This document shows positions 7,348 to 40,136 of a DNA stretch of 64,000 nt, one piece after another. Position 1 is the first letter of the stretch; every line of letters begins with the position of its first letter. Source of the stretch: Ruminococcus sp. OA3 (GTDB taxonomy: Bacteria > Bacillota > Clostridia > Lachnospirales > Lachnospiraceae). The translations under genes were made by a program, and so were the position numbers. The stretch lies in contig NZ_JAKNTO010000001.1 in NCBI RefSeq assembly GCF_022440845.1, positions 682,001-746,000 on the forward strand, read 5' to 3'. The notes beneath the pieces were generated by a model. The model ran no database searches, was not told the DNA's origin, and saw only the letters and a program-made list of their open reading frames with translations.

Positions 7348-8887
<1,540 letters not shown>

Positions 8888-9020
8888 AAGAAGAAGTAGG
8901 CATTGAGCATTTGATGAGAACGAGCCGGAAGGCGAAGGTCGAATCTAGTGCGAAAGCCCGCCTGGACACTTAGCGAATGCGAGCGAAAGCGAAGCATAAG
9001 GTTAGTGACCACGGTGAAGA

Positions 9021-9044
9021 GATGTGTTTTACTGTTGAGTTATC
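9021..9044 (+). other. 3' arm of the 16S precursor processing stem
   Basis: Pairs with 7221-7244 at 23 of 24 positions, enclosing the 16S gene. It lies in the 16S-5S spacer (8883-9169), which holds no tRNA gene. Confidence 0.8.
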
Positions 9045-9169
9045 GAAGAGATAACGCACTGGTGAGGAAAAAAAGAGCAGCTTACTACACAACGTAAGCA
9101 GAGGAAGTTCCACTGACGTGGAACAGCTTTCACACTAAGCTCAAAAGGGCCTCGCTAAGTGTTCAAAGC

Positions 9170-9288
9170 TTCTGGTGGCGATGCGCTTAGGGGAAACACC
9201 CGTACCCATCCCGAACACGATGGTTAAGACTTAAGCGGCCGATGGTACTGCACTGGTGACGGTGTGGGAGAGTAGGTGGCTGCCAGAA
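9170..9288 (+). rRNA. rrf: 5S ribosomal RNA, located between 16S and 23S
   Basis: A 119-base 5S rRNA. The terminal stem TTCTGG/CCAGAA encloses CACCCGTACCCATCCCGAAC, a 5S hallmark, and GTGGGAGAGTAGGTGGCTGCC. It sits upstream of the 23S gene, and no second 5S follows the 23S in this window. Confidence 0.95.
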
Positions 9289-9824
9289 CCCTTTAAAAAG
9301 TGTGGGAAACGCTTTTTGAGATAAAACGGGCACCCACAGAAGCGTGCCAACCTACAACAGCAGGGAAGTGTTGTTTTACATAACTGGTTTTACCAGTGAT
9401 CAGAGAGAACAAAGAAGTTTGTTGTTTCTGATGGCTGATAAAACAGCCGGCGAGACGAAGGCGGACGATGTGAGCGGACATCGGGATCAAAGATCCCTCA
9501 GTCGTGACATTACATGCCAATACATGAAAGAATCTTTGCACGGACAGGCGAACCTGACCGCACAAACCTTGTTTCCTGTGTTCCCATCAGGGAAGTGTTT
9601 CGCGTATGTACCTTGAAAACCGCATATACGAAAATATCTATATTGATAACATCTCTTATCAGCGAAGCTGATAAGCAAGAAACGTTAGAGATAGGAAAAG
9701 ACATCCGAGGAACCACAGGCAGAGATGCATGTGGTGAATCAAACATTGTAAACGCAATGAAACGAAACGCTCGATGCGAAAGCATCGCAAGTACCGACTG
9801 TTCCAAACGCTATTGGAGCAGGAA
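9289..9824 (+). other. 5S-23S spacer without genes
   Basis: A 536-base transcribed spacer. It holds the 5' arm of the 23S processing stem (9608-9629), a perfect 9-bp hairpin at 9655-9675, and a small CGATGC-GAAA-GCATCG hairpin at 9772-9787. I found no tRNA in it, and the short open frames lack ribosome sites. Confidence 0.8.
9608..9629 (+). other. 5' arm of the 23S precursor processing stem
   Basis: Complementary, with a few mismatches, to 12883-12904 after the 23S gene. The shared core is CCTTGAAAACCGCATA on this side. Because the stem starts after the 5S gene, 5S and 23S would be processed separately. Confidence 0.75.
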
Positions 9825-12717
<2,893 letters not shown>

Positions 12718-12882
12718 GAACACTTAGGGAGTGCAAGACGAAGTCGAAGCAGGAACTTAGTGTGAAGGTCGTTCGATAGAGCAAAGCGAGATCGAACTTC
12801 CCCTGCATAAGCAGAAGGAAGCAAGAGAAGCGGAGATCGAATGACCCGAAAGAAGACGGTAGAAGCGTGGATGGATGTAATA

Positions 12883-31897: not shown

Positions 31898-32007
31898 AAG
31901 AAAAACTTTTTCGCTTTACTGTGGAAAAACCTTTCAATCTTCTGTATAATTATAAATATAGCTTTGTAAGAATGGCCTATGTAATCTCCAGGAAAGGGGA
32001 GGAGAAG

Positions 32008-34401
32008 ATGCGGAATCAAAATCTGTTAAAGATATTAGACTCTCTGGATGATACAGGTGTTTATGTTATTAAGAAAGAGAATCGTACGCTACTGTATTAT
32101 AATCAAACAGTGAAGAACCTCCGTCCGGATATAGTGCTGGGAATGACGTGCAGGCAGGTTTTTCCTGACGGTGATGAATACTGTCCGTGCCGGATTATTC
32201 GATACAGTGAAATAATGGGACAGATGGTGACCATCAGTGTCAGAGAAATACAGTGGGACGATGAAATCCCTGCCTGCATGATTACATTGAACCCCCATAC
32301 ATGGGGGAACGAGGAAAAACAGGGAATTGAACAGATAGAAAAAATGTACATGCAGAGTCTCGTGACCGTATTCGGAGAGTGTATCATTGCAAATCTGACG
32401 AAAGATTTTTATGTAAACTGCCAGAAAGATATGCTGTGGACAGATATACCGGAGAGGGGACAATTTGGTATCGAAAATAAAAACTATTCTGCGAAGACGA
32501 TACACCCGGATGACTGGCAGGATTTTGATGATCATTTTTCACGTGATGCGATGCTTCGGATTTTTGGCGAAGGCAGGAGGCGAATAATAAGAAGGCTTCG
32601 GCGCTTAATGGATGATGGTGTTTATCATATGGTAGAATTCATGGCGGTCAGGATTGATCAGCTGGCGAATAATGAATGCTGGTGTGTACTGGTTTTTCGG
32701 GATATTCAAGAAGAATATCAGCAGGAAGTGGAAAAAAACACTGAGATCAGTCAGCTTGCAACAGCTGCCAGACTGGCATTTCAGATGCTGATATCTGCCA
32801 ATCTGACAAAAAATACATATCATATGCTGGAGTATGATGAATTTTCAGTCAAAAAGGCTGCACCCAGCGGAAATTTTGATGAACTGATGGAAGTAGAAGT
32901 TTCGACACTGGATCCTGATTTCAGGGAAGAATTCAGAAGAAAGTTTTCCCGTGATGCACTACTGAAAGCGTTTGCTCAGGGACAAAACAGTGTTACGATG
33001 GAAATGCGCCAGCTTGGCGATGATGGGTGCTACCACTGGAATTCTACACAGGTTGTGAAAGTAGACAGTCCATATACAGACGATGTACTGGAGATTACGC
33101 TGTCAAAAAATATCGATGAGGAGCGTCAGAAGCAGGAGGAGTTTCTGGAGAAAGAGCGGAAGTCAAAACTTATGATGGAAGAAGCGCTTCAAAAGGCTGA
33201 GAGTGCAAACAGAGCGAAAAGTAATTTTCTTTCAAGGATGAGTCATGATATCCGCACACCGATGAATGCTATCATGGGCATGACAGCTCTTGCGCAAATC
33301 AATATTAATGATAAAGAGAAATTGATAGAGTATCTGGAAAAGATTGAAATTTCCAGTAACCATCTTCTGAAGCTGATCAATGAAGTGCTGGATATGAGCA
33401 GGATTGAAAGTGGTAAGATGCAGCTGGATGAGACAGAGTTTGATCTATGCGGACTGGTTCAGGAAGTTGTTTTAATGATGCAGCCTGCGATCCAGCAAAA
33501 TGCACAGAAACTTATCGTGGAAATACCGGATGATTTTCATTCGCTTGTGTTGGGAGATGAACAGAGGCTTCGCCAGATACTGATCAACATTCTTGAAAAT
33601 GCAGTAAAATATACGGGCTTTCGGGGGAAAATCAGGGTCCGCCTGGAAGAACTGACAAAGGATGAGGCGTATATGGGAACGTATCGATTCATCATAGAGG
33701 ATAATGGGATAGGAATTAAAAAAGATTATCTGGAACATATCTTTGAGCCGTTCAGCAGGGGCGACGATACAAGAATTAATAAAATACCTGGTACAGGTCT
33801 GGGACTTACGATTGTGAAAACAATTCTGGATATGATGGAGGGGAAAATAGAGACAGAGAGCGAGTACGGAAGGGGAACCCGTTTCATCGTTACTCTGTGC
33901 ATGATGAAAAAGTACGTTCTGCAGCGGACACAAAAAGAAGAAATGGTAAGACAGATTGAGAATTTCAAGGGGGTTCGTGTGCTGCTGGCAGAAGATAATG
34001 AACTGAATCAACAGATTGCACGGGAGATGCTGGAATTTCTGGGGGCCAGGGCAGATGTTGTAGAAAACGGCAGCTGCGCTGTAAACATGGTGCTGAACAA
34101 TCCTCCTTTCTATTATGATCTTGTATTTATGGATGTTCAAATGCCAGTGATGAACGGTTTTGAGGCGACAGAAAAAATCCGGGCTTCAGGGAAAGAGGGA
34201 ATCGGGGAACTTCCGATTATCGCTATGACGGCAGATGCATTTCCCGAAGATGTAAAAAAGACAAGGCAGGCGGGGATGAATGGGCATATGGCGAAACCGA
34301 TCGAAATAGACCGCCTGAGAAAGGTATTGGAATACTGTGTTCAGTGGAAAAACAAAAATCGCCGGTCAACAGAGAACTTTTATTATGACACCAGCAAATA
34401 G
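32008..34401 (+). CDS. Hybrid sensor histidine kinase / response regulator
   Basis: A 797-residue cytoplasmic-looking hybrid kinase without clear membrane helices. Residues 1-100 form a PAS-like unit with several cysteines (CRQVF, EYCPCR); two further PAS-like repeats follow (MDDGVYHMVEF, LGDDGCYHWNS). The HisKA motif is FLSRMSHDIRTPMNAIMGM, the ATPase has DNGIGIKKDYLEHIFEPF and GTGLGLTIV, and the C-terminal receiver has LLAEDNELN, the phosphoacceptor in VFMDVQMPVMNG and KPIE. The frame opens at 31921, but ATG 32008 follows GGGGAGGAG. A TATAAT lies at 31945-31950. No partner gene is adjacent, so the target is unknown. Confidence 0.88.
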   Translation: MRNQNLLKILDSLDDTGVYVIKKENRTLLYYNQTVKNLRPDIVLGMTCRQVFPDGDEYCPCRIIRYSEIMGQMVTISVREIQWDDEIPACMITLNPHTWGNEEKQGIEQIEKMYMQSLVTVFGECIIANLTKDFYVNCQKDMLWTDIPERGQFGIENKNYSAKTIHPDDWQDFDDHFSRDAMLRIFGEGRRRIIRRLRRLMDDGVYHMVEFMAVRIDQLANNECWCVLVFRDIQEEYQQEVEKNTEISQLATAARLAFQMLISANLTKNTYHMLEYDEFSVKKAAPSGNFDELMEVEVSTLDPDFREEFRRKFSRDALLKAFAQGQNSVTMEMRQLGDDGCYHWNSTQVVKVDSPYTDDVLEITLSKNIDEERQKQEEFLEKERKSKLMMEEALQKAESANRAKSNFLSRMSHDIRTPMNAIMGMTALAQININDKEKLIEYLEKIEISSNHLLKLINEVLDMSRIESGKMQLDETEFDLCGLVQEVVLMMQPAIQQNAQKLIVEIPDDFHSLVLGDEQRLRQILINILENAVKYTGFRGKIRVRLEELTKDEAYMGTYRFIIEDNGIGIKKDYLEHIFEPFSRGDDTRINKIPGTGLGLTIVKTILDMMEGKIETESEYGRGTRFIVTLCMMKKYVLQRTQKEEMVRQIENFKGVRVLLAEDNELNQQIAREMLEFLGARADVVENGSCAVNMVLNNPPFYYDLVFMDVQMPVMNGFEATEKIRASGKEGIGELPIIAMTADAFPEDVKKTRQAGMNGHMAKPIEIDRLRKVLEYCVQWKNKNRRSTENFYYDTSK

Positions 34402-34432: not shown

Positions 34433-34483
34433 GCTGCAAAGTGGATATTAAGAAATATTATCCGCTTTGCAGCTTTCATTATT
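34433..34483. terminator. Convergent terminator between the hybrid kinase and PucR genes
   Basis: Near-perfect 15-bp stem (34433-34447 with 34459-34473) followed by TTTCATTATT. It lies between convergent coding regions and can act on both strands. Confidence 0.75.
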
Positions 34484-36032
34484 CACTTGGGAAAAAGAAA
34501 CCATTTTCAAGTTCGTAGTAATACATACTGATCAGTTTCGTGGAAATCATCAGATACAACCGTTCATCCGGATCATCCAGGTTCAAATGAAGCATTTCCT
34601 GAATTCGGCACAGGCGCTGATAAAAGGTATTGCGGTGAATATAAAGCAGATTGGCTGCTGTCACTGCGTTACAGTTATTTTTCACATAAGTCTCCAGAGT
34701 ATTTAAAAGCTCCGTCCCATTTTTAACGTCATACCTGTGCAGTTCCACCAGCCCGGGATGACAGAGATGTCGTGGCGGCAGACGACTGGAACCAAAATGC
34801 ATAAAATACTGAAGTGCATACTCGGAAAAATTGTAGCACCATATTGTGGGATTGTACAGTTTACCCATATCATAGGCACAACAGGCCTGCTGAAAATAAA
34901 TTGGAGTTGTCTCAAAATTCCAATATTTAAAGCTGACACCGGCTTTCATCAGGCCATCGCGCAGCAACAGACTGATCCTCCGCTGAATATCAAAATAGGG
35001 ACATTTTGACCGGTCCAGGTTCACGATTGCTACCACGCGTTCATTGTAAGGGAACACAACGCAGGCGGAGAACAGGCTTTCCAGCTTCAGACAAAAGGTA
35101 CTGATATATTTGGGATTACGCTGTTCTGTCAGGCTGTGCATGGAGATACAGCAACAGGTATCCTCCATGTCCCATCCCACAGCATCCAGCTGATTTTGCA
35201 ATTCGATTCTGCTCAGCCTCGTTCCCTCCAGCATGGACTGAATCACGGCGGACAGGCTGTCCGGTACGAAAGATTTCAGTGTGGAGTTCTCAAAACTCAT
35301 CAACACATAGTGGTTAAGATATCCAATCACTTCTACGATGCTTATGTCAAGCGGTATATCCATCTCAAATACCACAAGGATATAATCCTTCCTGCCGTCC
35401 ATGGTACAGATCAAATTATAAGGCAGACGGTCATCCCTGAGCAGGACTGCCCCCTCTATAAAATCCTCTGCCGTCTCCGTATAGACCAGATTCAGCTGAT
35501 TGATAAAATCTGTGGGAAGCAGCCGCATGCCGGTAACAGGGTCCAGTTCCCAGTCCATCAGGTTCTGGGCATTTTCTGAAATATAGTGAACCCGCAGAAA
35601 GCTGTCAAATACAACAAGCGGCAACTTTACAAAACTACAGATCAGGTTACAGAGAAGGTGCGGTGCTATATCCTTTATAATACTGCTTTTCAGATTTTCA
35701 TCAAAAATATCGTAGGTTTGAAAGATATGCAGCACTGCATTCAGCACGACTGGAAAACGATGATCGTCCACACAGATATAATCCACCTGCGCATTTTGAA
35801 AATAATCCTCCGGGATCTGACCCGAGATAATAAGGGAGGCATGGGATTGAAATTTCCAGCGAACAGGAAGCCGCCTTGCCTCTGCAACATAGAGAACCTG
35901 AGGTTCCGGCGCTGTACTGGTGAGCATGGCTGCGCTTCTTAAATTTGCATGGCGTTCAAAAACGGACTGTGATCCTGTAAGAGAAAACTGCTTTGCCAGC
36001 TCGTGCCGGACAATATTCATACTCAGATACAC
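34479..36032 (-). CDS. PucR family transcriptional regulator
   Basis: A 517-residue regulator. The C-terminal 60 residues are the PucR helix-turn-helix (LETYVKNNCNAVTAANLLYI, HRNTFYQRLCRIQEML). The middle resembles a GGDEF-like/GAF region of CdaR/PucR proteins, and the N-terminus is a ligand-sensing segment of unknown type. The start is GTG, eight bases after AGGAGG. It lies 39 bases behind the URO-D-like gene on the same strand, so the two are probably co-transcribed and this protein likely senses the compound handled by the cluster. Confidence 0.85.
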   Translation of the reverse strand: MYLSMNIVRHELAKQFSLTGSQSVFERHANLRSAAMLTSTAPEPQVLYVAEARRLPVRWKFQSHASLIISGQIPEDYFQNAQVDYICVDDHRFPVVLNAVLHIFQTYDIFDENLKSSIIKDIAPHLLCNLICSFVKLPLVVFDSFLRVHYISENAQNLMDWELDPVTGMRLLPTDFINQLNLVYTETAEDFIEGAVLLRDDRLPYNLICTMDGRKDYILVVFEMDIPLDISIVEVIGYLNHYVLMSFENSTLKSFVPDSLSAVIQSMLEGTRLSRIELQNQLDAVGWDMEDTCCCISMHSLTEQRNPKYISTFCLKLESLFSACVVFPYNERVVAIVNLDRSKCPYFDIQRRISLLLRDGLMKAGVSFKYWNFETTPIYFQQACCAYDMGKLYNPTIWCYNFSEYALQYFMHFGSSRLPPRHLCHPGLVELHRYDVKNGTELLNTLETYVKNNCNAVTAANLLYIHRNTFYQRLCRIQEMLHLNLDDPDERLYLMISTKLISMYYYELENGFFFPSE

Positions 36033-36071
36033 CCTGTATTCCTCCTGCCCCGTATATTTTTGACACTACAA

Positions 36072-37127
36072 TTATTTTTCCATACCGGCCCTTTCCCGGG
36101 CATATTTCTTTGAACTGTATTCAAAGATTTCAGTGGTAACAGCCGTATACACCATAGGAGTCAGTGCCTTAAATGCCAGGATCAGTCCCCCGCCTTCCCC
36201 CAGCGTATCGATTACCTGACGCACATAGCCCCGCACTTCTTCCTCTGTAATCTCGGGGTTCTGAAGTACATAGGGATCCAAAGTAAACTGAATTGCCAGA
36301 TTATTTCCGTATTTTTGCTTTACTGTCTTCAGATCATTCATACCCTGTGCTTCCCAGAAATGAAACCCCAGTTCTACCATATAAGGTACCAGAGTTTCTG
36401 TTTTTCCACAGCTGTGGCAGTCCCAGTACAGTCCCAGCTCATGAACCTTATCAGCGATTCTCTTCATGGGTGGTAGAAGCAGTTTTTCAAAAACAGACGG
36501 TGCCATAAAAGTACTGATCTGGGTTCCCCAGTCATCAGAATTAATCAGCAGGTCAAAGGGAGCCCACTCTCGGACAAGTTTCTCCAGAAGAGCAATTTTA
36601 TAATCGGCCACTGCTTCAAAGAACTCTGCCGCATCCTCCGGTTCCTCCAGAAGCCAGCTCAAGGCTTCTTCAGCCGTACACAGGGAGAGCAGCCGTTCAA
36701 ACAGGCCATCCTGCATCACATAACCGGTAATCTTATGGGGATCTGTTTTGGTCCTGGCCTCCTGTGACCCCACAGTGAAATCCATCTGATTCAGATCTGG
36801 AAATCTTAGTTTCTCTCTCCACTGGGAAGGTTTTTCCATTATGAATGTATCGGGTGTCACCATCTGGCCGCCTACCTGATCCACATATGTCCAACTTACC
36901 CCGAACCAGTCTTTTCCATCTGTGCCAAAAGCAGGGCGGTCGAGGTCATGGGGACAGAAGGTCATATCGTTATCAATGTCCTTCATAGGAACCCAATAGG
37001 GAAGCTTATGTTCCATACAGAGCTTATAGTTTTCCTTTTGGGAAATGGGATATGGAAACTCGTGCAGCGCACATGGCTGAGGTACCATTCGAGATTCGAT
37101 GATAAAATTTTTTTTTCTGTTAGTCAT
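36072..37127 (-). CDS. URO-D-like methyltransferase with HxCG zinc motif
   Basis: A 351-residue protein of the uroporphyrinogen decarboxylase superfamily. The segment WDCHSCGKTETLVPYM (residues 235-250) holds an H-x-C-G motif, the zinc-thiol activation site of the MtaA/CmuA corrinoid-methyltransferase branch, and FDLLINSDDWGTQ near 191 is a typical barrel strand. The N-terminal half is cysteine-containing (CPHDLDRP). No corrinoid protein or reductive activator gene is adjacent. The frame runs open to 37418, but ATG 37127 follows GAGGAA. It is grouped with PucR, MFS and SLC13 genes, which suggests metabolism of an imported acid or methylated compound (inference). Confidence 0.75.
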   Translation of the reverse strand: MTNRKKNFIIESRMVPQPCALHEFPYPISQKENYKLCMEHKLPYWVPMKDIDNDMTFCPHDLDRPAFGTDGKDWFGVSWTYVDQVGGQMVTPDTFIMEKPSQWREKLRFPDLNQMDFTVGSQEARTKTDPHKITGYVMQDGLFERLLSLCTAEEALSWLLEEPEDAAEFFEAVADYKIALLEKLVREWAPFDLLINSDDWGTQISTFMAPSVFEKLLLPPMKRIADKVHELGLYWDCHSCGKTETLVPYMVELGFHFWEAQGMNDLKTVKQKYGNNLAIQFTLDPYVLQNPEITEEEVRGYVRQVIDTLGEGGGLILAFKALTPMVYTAVTTEIFEYSSKKYARERAGMEK

Positions 37128-37290
37128 AAGTATTCCTCGCTTTCTGTCATGATAGATATAATGACAGGCATTACGCTTGCGGCATAAACCCGAGGTGTTT
37201 CTAGTTTTATTTAAGCACGGCGGCTTTAAAATGTCAAACCATCGGCTGTCGCTGAGTTTCTGTTTTGCGCAGAAAATACGGTTGATTCCG

Positions 37291-37305
37291 TGTACAGCCT
37301 GTACA
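37291..37305. promoter_or_regulatory. Palindromic operator candidate 1
   Basis: TGTACA-GCC-TGTACA, a perfect 6-3-6 palindrome, downstream of the minus-strand -10 box. Confidence 0.5.
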
Positions 37306-37360
37306 TAAAAAACGATTCCGTTATAAATTATAATAGGTATACTTCCTTCTTTTTCGGAAT

Positions 37361-37387
37361 CTGAATGTACACTCTGCACATGTTCAG
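37361..37387. promoter_or_regulatory. Palindromic operator candidate 2
   Basis: TGTACA-CTC-TGCACA (37366-37380), one change from candidate 1, flanked by CTGAA and TTCAG in inverted orientation. It lies about 40 bases upstream of the minus-strand -10 box. Confidence 0.5.
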
Positions 37388-37516
37388 AAAAAAATAAGTC
37401 ACATTGTGAATATTTCATAATTTTAGACGCTATTATATAATGTTTTTAGGTAATATAGCTTGCGGCGTTGCCTGAATACGTTTATTTCACAAAAGTATTT
37501 AAAGGGGGAAAATACT

Positions 37517-38719
37517 ATGACGAATGATACTGTTTCAACAAAAAGAAAATTAAATCCATATGTTTACATTGTAATCATGGTTCTGTTCTTTATGTGCTAT
37601 GGCAACTGCCAGTATAAGATCAGCCCGGTACTTACCTATCTGATGGAAGGAATGGGAATTGGCACAGACAAGGGCGGACTGCTCACTTCCTCGGTTAATC
37701 TTCTGGGTATCTTCATTACTATTCCGCTGGGTGTTGTAATGAATAAGCTCGGTCCCAGAAAGATGGGGCTTTTCGGAATTACTCTTGTTCTCGGAGGTTC
37801 CGTACTGGGGACGTTCTTCACGGCAAACTTTTATATGATGCTGATCTCTCAGCTGATCGTAGGGGCTGGCGGTGCGGGGATTTCCATTGCATGTCCCTAT
37901 GTGATCGCCTGCCTGTTTGTTCCGGAAATGCGGGGAAAGGCAAACGGGGCCTACATTATGGCGGGCACCCTTTCACAACTGCTGATGTATAATCTTGTTC
38001 CCCGTATTGCAAGCCCCGATAATGTCTCTCCGGCATGGTGGTTCACCAATATCTGGTGTGTTATCATGCTGATCGTATGGCTGATCACCATCACAGACGA
38101 TGTTGCACCGCCGGCAAGAACTGAGGGTAAGGACAGTCCGTCTCTGGGACAGACATTGAAGGCTCTGGTGGACCCAAGAATTCTCCGGATTTTTATCGGC
38201 GGGATGTTTATGATGGCATCTGCTGTTGCAGTCCTCACCATGACTCCCGCATATCTGATACAGACAAAGGGAATGGATGCAGCAGCAGCAGGGTCCCTTG
38301 TCTCGGTCTGCGCGCTGGTAGGTGCGGTCTGTTCACTGCTGGGCGGCTGGCTCTCCGATGCATTACACACCCGCAAATGGCTCTTTGTGATCTGCTTCGC
38401 ATGGATGGCTGTCTCAAGAGTTTTAATCGCAGTTCTTCCTGCCGGTATGGCACTGAATATCTGTATCTGGCTGCAGGGTATTCCGTCCATCACAATGGGA
38501 CTGTTTTATACGGCGGGAAGTGACGTGATTGAAAAGGAAAATTATGCGATGTGCTGCTCTGCGCTGAACACCGGCACTAAGATCGGTTCTTTCTTCGGTG
38601 CCACCATATTCGGCATTATCGCTGCCACTACACTCGGATATTCGGGAGCCTACATGACGTTTGCAGTCGTTTCCATTATTCCAATGATCTGTATGCTCAC
38701 ATTAAAAGGACTGAAATAG
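37517..38719 (+). CDS. MFS transporter
   Basis: A 400-residue major facilitator with about twelve hydrophobic helices. The loop 2-3 signature appears as GVVMNKLGPRKMGLFG, the equivalent of GxLaDrxGrkr. The overall look is of the anion/nitrate/oxalate-formate-like branch. The frame opens at 37460, but ATG 37517 follows AAAGGGGG and matches a short charged N-terminus. The SLC13 gene follows after 19 bases. Divergent from the URO-D-like and PucR genes. Confidence 0.87.
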   Translation: MTNDTVSTKRKLNPYVYIVIMVLFFMCYGNCQYKISPVLTYLMEGMGIGTDKGGLLTSSVNLLGIFITIPLGVVMNKLGPRKMGLFGITLVLGGSVLGTFFTANFYMMLISQLIVGAGGAGISIACPYVIACLFVPEMRGKANGAYIMAGTLSQLLMYNLVPRIASPDNVSPAWWFTNIWCVIMLIVWLITITDDVAPPARTEGKDSPSLGQTLKALVDPRILRIFIGGMFMMASAVAVLTMTPAYLIQTKGMDAAAAGSLVSVCALVGAVCSLLGGWLSDALHTRKWLFVICFAWMAVSRVLIAVLPAGMALNICIWLQGIPSITMGLFYTAGSDVIEKENYAMCCSALNTGTKIGSFFGATIFGIIAATTLGYSGAYMTFAVVSIIPMICMLTLKGLK

Positions 38720-38738
38720 AGTCGGTAGGAGAAAATTC

Positions 38739-40136
38739 ATGGAAGAATTAACTGCAAAAAGAAAATACGGACTTATCCTTGCAGTGTTGATTCTGATTGT
38801 TATGTTTTTCGTCCCGGTACCGGCAGGTCTGACACCCGCCGGTACCCGGACGCTGGGATGTACGCTGGCGCTTCTCATTTGTCTGAGTACAGGTGCGCTT
38901 CCACTGGGACTGACTTCATTGATTTTTATGATGCTGTACTTTGTCCTGGGTGCGGCTCCTTCCCTGACGTCAGCCATCAGCGGAATGGCTGCACCACCGG
39001 TAATGTTTATTCTGGCATCGTTTGGCATGTCAGCAGCAGTATCGAATTCTCCCATTTCCAGGCGGATTCTGTATTTTATGATGAAGATTTTCGGCAAATC
39101 CATTAAAACCACACTGCTGGGACTGATGTTTGCCACGGCAGTTGTATCAGCCTTTATCTCAAACGTACCGGTTACCGCAATGTTTGTAACAATCGGAATC
39201 TCATTTCTGCAGTTGTACGCGAATGAAACAGAGAGAAAGCAGACGGGAAGAACCTATATGATTGCAATCCCCGTGGCTGCCATGATAGGCGGCATTATGA
39301 CACCCGTAGGTTCTTCACCCAATCTGGTAGCAATCTCCACGCTCAAGACCATGGCTGGTTACAGTATCTCCTTTGTGGAATGGGCTTCTTACGGTGTGCC
39401 TGTTGGACTGATTCTGATTCCCGCCGCATGGCTGATTATCACAAGGGTGTTTCCGCCGGCCGAGATGGAACAGGAGCTTTTTGAAGAATTTATCGAGTCC
39501 ACCCGTGTAACAAAAAAGCCGAATCGCCAGGAGGCAAAAATAATAGTGATTATGGGCAGCATGATTGTCCTGTGGATACTTTCATCATGGATCAGCGCAA
39601 TCAATCTCTATGTGGTGGCCGTTTTGGGAGTGGCGATTATGTTTCTCCCGGGGGTTCGAATACTGGATTGGGAGGAATTTAAAAAAAGCACAAACTGGGA
39701 TGTAGTATTTGTGACGGCGTCCGTTATCTCACTGGGAAATATTATCAGCGAAAACGGGCTCAGCACATGGTTTGTTAATACCATATTCCCGTCCAATCTG
39801 GCGCTTCCTGCTTTTGTAATGGTTTTTGTCACTGCAGTTTTTGTTATCCTGATGCTGCTTGTCATCCCGATTTCCGGGGCGTTGATACAGGTTCTGGCGG
39901 GGCCGCTGATCGTAGTGGCGATGAACTGCGGGATTCATCCGGTTATCTTAATTATTACACTGTGTTTCTGTGCCACAAACTGTTATCTGCTGCCGATTGA
40001 CACTGTGCCGCTTCTCGCTTACAGCAGCGGATACTTCCAGATGACTGATATGCCGAAAGCTACAGCACCGATCCTGCTGATTCTGGCACTGCTGTGTGCG
40101 CTGTGGTGTCCTCTGATATATAGTTTTCTAATGTGA
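38739..40136 (+). CDS. SLC13/DASS family anion permease
   Basis: A 465-residue sodium-coupled carboxylate or sulfate transporter of the divalent-anion family. Two inverted-repeat motifs typical of the family are visible: SNVPVTAMFV in the first half and GGIMTPVGSSPNLVAI after it, with the second SNT-like region near FCATNCYLLPIDTVPLLAY. About eleven hydrophobic segments. It is co-transcribed with the MFS gene. The substrate is likely a di- or tricarboxylate (inference). Confidence 0.88.
   Translation: MEELTAKRKYGLILAVLILIVMFFVPVPAGLTPAGTRTLGCTLALLICLSTGALPLGLTSLIFMMLYFVLGAAPSLTSAISGMAAPPVMFILASFGMSAAVSNSPISRRILYFMMKIFGKSIKTTLLGLMFATAVVSAFISNVPVTAMFVTIGISFLQLYANETERKQTGRTYMIAIPVAAMIGGIMTPVGSSPNLVAISTLKTMAGYSISFVEWASYGVPVGLILIPAAWLIITRVFPPAEMEQELFEEFIESTRVTKKPNRQEAKIIVIMGSMIVLWILSSWISAINLYVVAVLGVAIMFLPGVRILDWEEFKKSTNWDVVFVTASVISLGNIISENGLSTWFVNTIFPSNLALPAFVMVFVTAVFVILMLLVIPISGALIQVLAGPLIVVAMNCGIHPVILIITLCFCATNCYLLPIDTVPLLAYSSGYFQMTDMPKATAPILLILALLCALWCPLIYSFLM

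Follow-up and report, generated by a model that had tools for sequence, protein, structure and literature searches.

A gene of the URO-D superfamily, located next to a gene for a PucR-family regulator and facing two genes for anion-type transporters in the genome of Ruminococcus sp. OA3, raises the question of which reaction such an assembly would catalyze and with which partners. An initial sequence-only reading of the locus had assigned the URO-D protein to the corrinoid methyltransferase type in light of an HxCG zinc motif, and had described the cluster as a self-contained system which, with no corrinoid protein next to it, would either employ a distant partner or carry out new chemistry. 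We have addressed this question by an analysis of gene layout, neighbourhood conservation, phylogeny, predicted structure and the gene content of the host genome. The window referred to below is the whole stretch of 64 kb that was analysed, and coordinates without another label are positions therein.

Organization and conservation of the gene cluster

The four open reading frames of the cluster (34479-40136) were confirmed in their place and orientation and encode the following proteins:

34479..36032, minus strand: long-form transcriptional regulator of the PucR family, 517 aa (HTH_30, PF13556, 69.8 bits)
36072..~37127, minus strand: URO-D-superfamily protein, putative corrinoid methyltransferase I, 351 aa (PF01208, 63.2 bits)
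37517..38719 (ORF listed from 37460), plus strand: MFS anion-type permease (PF07690, 139 bits)
38739..40136, plus strand: DASS/SLC13-family transporter, 465 aa (PF00939, 158 bits)

The start of the URO-D gene was corrected from 37418, from where the listed ORF is too long, to about 37127, because comparison with orthologues, as well as the ribosome site GAGGAA preceding the ATG at 37127, indicates a protein of 351 residues. Similarly, the MFS gene probably starts with the ATG at 37517, located behind AAAGGGGG, which provides a better ribosome site than found for the listed start at 37460. The PucR gene follows the URO-D gene on the same strand at a distance of 39 bp and the DASS gene follows the MFS gene at a distance of 19 bp, spacings that make it likely that both pairs form divergent operons with a common gap of about 390 bp. 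This layout agrees with the initial proposal that the regulator would be co-transcribed with the URO-D gene and that two transporters face it on the opposite strand. Outside of the cluster, a gene encoding a hybrid histidine kinase-response regulator (31921-34401) runs towards the PucR gene in convergent orientation and terminates shortly before its 3' end. In a distant part of the window (7348-12718), the rRNA genes are arranged unusually, with 16S (7348-8881) followed by 5S (9171-9288) and 23S (9825-12718).

The exact set of four genes is confined to the window and two loci of close relatives (L021 and L023). In L021, the genes appear in the order of the window, with an extra URO-D gene lacking the HxCG motif after the DASS gene, whereas in L023 PucR and a URO-D without HxCG face an MFS-DASS-URO-D-FeADH-URO-D array, whose last gene is the orthologue. 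In Lachnoclostridium sp. An196 (L026), the transporters and the 5' ends of both URO-D genes are gone; an apparent deletion (L026:7183-8810) of MFS, DASS and both 5' ends has left truncated ORFs back to back. A further orthologue (L029) is placed between a gene for a BaiCD-like flavoenzyme (366 bits at a cut-off of 825) and an MFS gene, with a second URO-D present, and L031 and L032 have retained the divergent PucR alone. No PucR was found within the flank examined beside the orthologues in L022, L024, L025 and L027-L030. Conservation of the neighbourhood, which the initial reading had named as a check of its proposal, thus holds for the four genes in L021 and L023 but not for distant orthologues, where the URO-D gene is accompanied by PucR, by other transporters or stands alone. 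The pair of URO-D and PucR is more widespread than the four-gene set.

Pairing of PucR regulators with URO-D genes and candidate operators

Besides its C-terminal HTH_30 domain, the PucR protein of the cluster shows a match to GGDEF_2 (21.4 bits) that falls slightly below the cut-off of 24.5, and its orthologues in L021, L023 and L026 share 54-56% identity. The OA3 genome contains nine PF13556 genes above cut-off, six of which encode long proteins of 490-572 residues, and all six are located within 6 kb of a URO-D gene (binomial p about 1e-6; 9e-7). Conversely, a long PucR adjoins 7/7 URO-Ds of the clade that contains the window protein, compared to 3/29 of the other URO-Ds in the genome (Fisher 1.4e-5). 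Transporters of the MFS or DASS type are also part of such paralogous PucR-URO-D modules, one of which contains an arylamine-acetyltransferase-like gene as well. In other genomes, the long type of PucR adjoins genes of corrinoid proteins or MTII (G152, G155, G153, G154, G157, G151, G133 and G013, besides G026). A search of the literature returned nothing relevant on PucR with corrinoid methyltransferases, or on PucR with URO-D in Lachnospiraceae.

A motif search in the gap between the divergent operons revealed two palindromes as candidate operators:

37365..37381, no strand assigned: ATGTACA-N3-TGCACAT, perfect match
37290..37306, no strand assigned: GTGTACA-N3-TGTACAT, one mismatch, which pairs with the first site as inverted repeat

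These are the only two matches with up to two mismatches in the 64-kb window. The single exact match in L023 (at 2868) lies inside the homologous intergenic stretch. At the other PucR loci of the OA3 genome, no match with up to one mismatch was found, and the candidate operator would thus be lineage-specific at best.

These observations bear on the possibility that the neighbourhood has arisen by chance, with PucR controlling something unrelated and the transporters acting independently. Such a scenario would be in line with the confinement of the exact set to three loci and with the orthologues that have no PucR in the examined flank. It is nevertheless extremely unlikely in light of the location of all six long PucRs next to URO-D genes, the retention of MFS, DASS, URO-D and PucR in L021 and L023 and the matching palindromes in the common gap.

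Relationship of the URO-D protein to corrinoid methyltransferases

In comparison to NCBIfam models, the URO-D protein scores best with the MtaA-type at 46 bits (cut-offs 235-244) and reaches 25.9 bits with HemE (TIGR01464, cut-off 303), which places it outside of every curated family. An identity as HemE was rejected based on this score, the absence of the RQAGRY motif and its separation from HemE in the phylogenetic tree. Membership of the MtaA/CmuA/MtbA group was equally rejected, given the low score, the lack of a third zinc-coordinating cysteine and the separate clade. A sequence search of the PDB with the protein, a profile of its orthologues or a paralogue yielded no match.

In a scan of genome contigs, we identified 12 orthologues with 44-81% identity in gut genomes of the Lachnospiraceae, Oscillospiraceae and Eubacteriaceae type. 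The sequences SDDWGTQ and HSCG are kept in all aligned orthologues, with one Ser/Thr-type variation outside of the motif. An alignment of 42 members of the wider clade defines G76, W103, P110, G141, E144, D198, D199, H238 and N264 as invariant residues. The HxCG motif proposed initially is thus present, as HSCG at residues 238-241, whereas the assignment of zinc binding has become weak: only the histidine is invariant in the clade, the cysteine is replaced in one branch containing HHAD or HHSD instead, and the third zinc ligand of MtaA-type proteins is missing, with no cysteine found beyond residue 240.

An AF2 model built from the 42 clade members (pLDDT 94), which replaced an earlier mediocre model from 12 close orthologues (pLDDT 79), displays the TIM-barrel fold of URO-D proteins. 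With Z-scores of 23.4 to HemE and 22.4 to MtaA, both comparisons are tied and structure therefore does not settle function. The resemblance to MtaA, together with the H-x-C sequence kept in the branch of the window protein, could point to an alternative in which the clade consists of corrinoid methyltransferases but this branch is MT II-like, transferring a methyl group from a common corrinoid protein to a thiol or another imported anion. We regard this as unlikely, considering the absence of the C-terminal third zinc cysteine of MtaA, the score of 46 bits against MtaA cut-offs of 244 and 235 and the fact that the corrinoid protein loci of the genome already contain a pterin-type MTII.

In a tree of 73 sequences, which excludes references for MtvB, OdmB, VdmB and MtoB and whose deep branching order is unsure owing to long branches, the window protein is part of a single clade of 46 rows with a support of 99/99 that also contains URO-D paralogues linked to corrinoid proteins. 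This clade is distinct from HemE, from MtaA, from a group of URO-Ds of about 420 residues and from another OA3 group. The phylogeny thus sustains the initial assignment to the corrinoid methyltransferase type and its separation from HemE. The group of about 420 residues is represented by many copies in OA3 (L061-L065, L069, L072-L074; e.g. L063:10562-11821 and L073:6551-7810), next to genes that, judged from their sequence, encode rbs-like sugar ABC transporters and alcohol-dehydrogenase-like proteins, and these URO-Ds may remove methyl groups from sugars or polyols.

The link of the 46-row clade to corrinoid proteins (CP) is manifested in operons of the type MTII-CP-URO-D in G075 and G158, PucR | MTII-CP-URO-D in G026 and CP-URO-D in G067. 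Among 66 clade genes sampled across the class, at least 15, distributed over 7 of 16 genomes, have a corrinoid protein gene at a distance of no more than 3 kb, and for complete genomes such proximity is expected about 0.25 times per genome and was observed 3, 3 and 0 times. In two genera, both proteins are fused in a single reading frame, with a corrinoid domain containing DxHDIGKN:

L144:5863-7602: Vescimonas fastidiosa WP_329958977.1, 579 aa, annotated 'cobalamin-dependent protein', URO-D half without HxCG and sharing 57% identity with an OA3 paralogue
L157:718-2487: G162, 590 aa, adjoining a RACo gene, URO-D half without HxCG

Corrinoid proteins and RACo are encoded in 37/37 sampled genomes that carry the clade (21/21 and 16/16); given a background of RACo in 86 of 150 genomes of the family (57%), simple co-occurrence inside that family is modest evidence only (p 0.01). 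An AcsV-type RACo is found in 12/12 orthologue genomes compared to 17/149 (p about 1e-10), at a cut of E < 1e-90 that was picked after inspection of the data and with orthologue genomes that are partly from other families. Against the described relationship counts that the link to corrinoid proteins is drawn from paralogues with about 25-39% identity to the window protein, and that the fused and some of the operon-borne members are of the type without HxCG, which branches early inside the clade. Among the 13 closest members, forming the inner orthologue clade, none adjoins a corrinoid protein gene.

Taken together, context and phylogeny support a placement of the window protein in the corrinoid methyltransferase I group. 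The lack of an adjacent corrinoid protein, the carboxylate-type transporters and the shared fold with HemE could instead reflect a decarboxylase or lyase that acts on organic acids from the DASS permease without need for a corrinoid. This explanation is quite unlikely in view of the absent RQAGRY motif, the presence of corrinoid proteins and activases in every sampled genome carrying the clade and the clade members that are fused to, or share operons with, corrinoid proteins.

The corrinoid hub, the proposed mechanism and known systems

The OA3 genome (G000, 4.06 Mb) contains about 34 URO-D genes, two RACo genes and four MttB genes. As stated in the initial reading, no corrinoid protein adjoins the cluster: the only two PF02607 proteins of the genome are encoded at C1:1613443 and C1:3656905, and the cluster is located near C1:718000. 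Both have a length of 212 residues, differ by one residue and are each encoded downstream of a pterin-type MTII. The two copies of the MTII-corrinoid protein pair (L055:6516-8067 and L056:8504-10095) appear to reflect either a duplication of recent date or gene conversion. The presence of an ACS/CODH operon that includes AcsV (1008 bits) identifies OA3 as a Wood-Ljungdahl acetogen. A separate MtaA-like protein (L001:1408-2433), with HNCG and a third cysteine (SGCDI), resembles mlp-type coenzyme M methyltransferase homologues. With corrinoid protein, MTII and activase all encoded away from the cluster, the notion of a self-contained system had to be abandoned. Nor does the chemistry have to be new, given that other proteins of the clade are encoded in operons together with MTII and CP or form fusions with a corrinoid protein. 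The missing partner is most likely the distant one already considered initially, in the form of a corrinoid protein common to many similar URO-D enzymes of the genome.

Both transporters show features of anion carriers. The MFS protein is best matched by the D-galactonate subfamily of NCBIfam, below cut-off, with weak PDB matches to D-galactonate and L-lactate transporters. The second protein belongs to the DASS/SLC13 family, as evident from its PF00939 score at a cut-off of 27, a TIGR00785 score (196.2 bits) slightly under the cut-off of 198.6 and PDB matches to VcINDY and SLC13A1/2/3/5.

With clade membership, corrinoid linkage and fusion, PucR-URO-D pairing, the complete hub and co-occurrence as computed results, we consider it highly probable that the cluster is a substrate-specific 'spoke' in a hub-and-spoke network of corrinoid methyl transfer, whose reaction, hub use, transport direction and operators are predicted. 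A methyl-bearing organic anion would be imported by the MFS permease, the DASS permease or both, and the URO-D protein, acting as methyltransferase I, would transfer its methyl group to Co(I) of one of the two near-identical corrinoid proteins encoded beside MTII elsewhere on the chromosome. MTII would pass the methyl group to tetrahydrofolate and from there to the Wood-Ljungdahl pathway, while RACo-type activases would re-reduce the corrinoid, and PucR would sense substrate or product and control the divergent operons via the candidate palindromes. Against this mechanism counts that the four MttB-family genes may use the same hub. As a tentative best guess from accessory genes, the substrate may be a methoxylated aromatic carboxylate, since genes for a BaiCD/enoate-reductase-like flavoenzyme, for an Fe-dependent alcohol dehydrogenase or for an arylamine-acetyltransferase-like protein occur in related loci, along with several URO-Ds, each of which could take one methyl group.

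It is conceivable, if rather doubtful, that the clade represents a large and as yet undescribed family of URO-D methyltransferases in the gut. Many of these would lack HxCG and possibly be metal-free, and the family would be expanded in acetogenic Clostridia as PucR-controlled spokes round one corrinoid hub, each demethylating another diet- or host-derived anion via undescribed ether, ester or other methyl chemistry. To our knowledge, O-demethylation of drugs and dietary compounds in the gut has mostly been described as an activity with no gene assigned to it. In a study on etoposide, three methyltransferase I knock-outs of Eubacterium limosum retained wild-type activity (PMC12915777). The clade with its corrinoid-linked and fused members and one regulator per spoke singles out specific candidates for such demethylases, and if the hub-and-spoke organization holds, loss of the hub should end many activities together and induction via PucR should lead to each substrate.

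The chloromethane methyltransferase CmuA, where methyltransferase I is fused to a corrinoid domain, sets a precedent for the fusions of Vescimonas and G162, although their URO-D halves belong to the branch without HxCG and the likeness is by description and not by sequence. MtaA and the soluble coenzyme M methyltransferase homologues of mlp clusters share the superfamily and the H-x-C-G motif (PMC10418091), but the window protein lacks their third zinc cysteine, scores far under the cut-offs and resides in a separate clade, and OA3 contains a distinct MtaA-like protein. The closest described enzymes are the O-demethylase methyltransferases I of the superfamily (MtvB, OdmB, VdmB and MtoB) and CdmB of Acetobacterium dehalogenans, which are likewise proteins of the URO-D fold that operate with a corrinoid protein on a distinct polypeptide, with a pterin MTII and with an activase driven by ATP (PMC13222342). 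In CdmB and the Moorella enzyme zinc is not required, and the authors also mark large clades without assigned substrate (PMC13222342). CdmB (9rui) was not matched in our PDB sequence search with the window protein or the 12-orthologue profile, and the OA3 cluster differs from these systems in partner genes that are not adjacent and in its control by PucR. Finally, in Eubacterium limosum, MtpB, MtcB and MtyB use one common corrinoid protein, MtqC, together with MtqA, and adjacency of the corrinoid protein to the methyltransferase I gene is thus not obligatory (PMC8604678). OA3 would resemble this MttB network in the scattered substrate-specific methyltransferase I genes that are served by one common corrinoid protein, MTII and activase, whereas its spokes consist of proteins of the URO-D instead of the MttB family, each with its own PucR and permeases.
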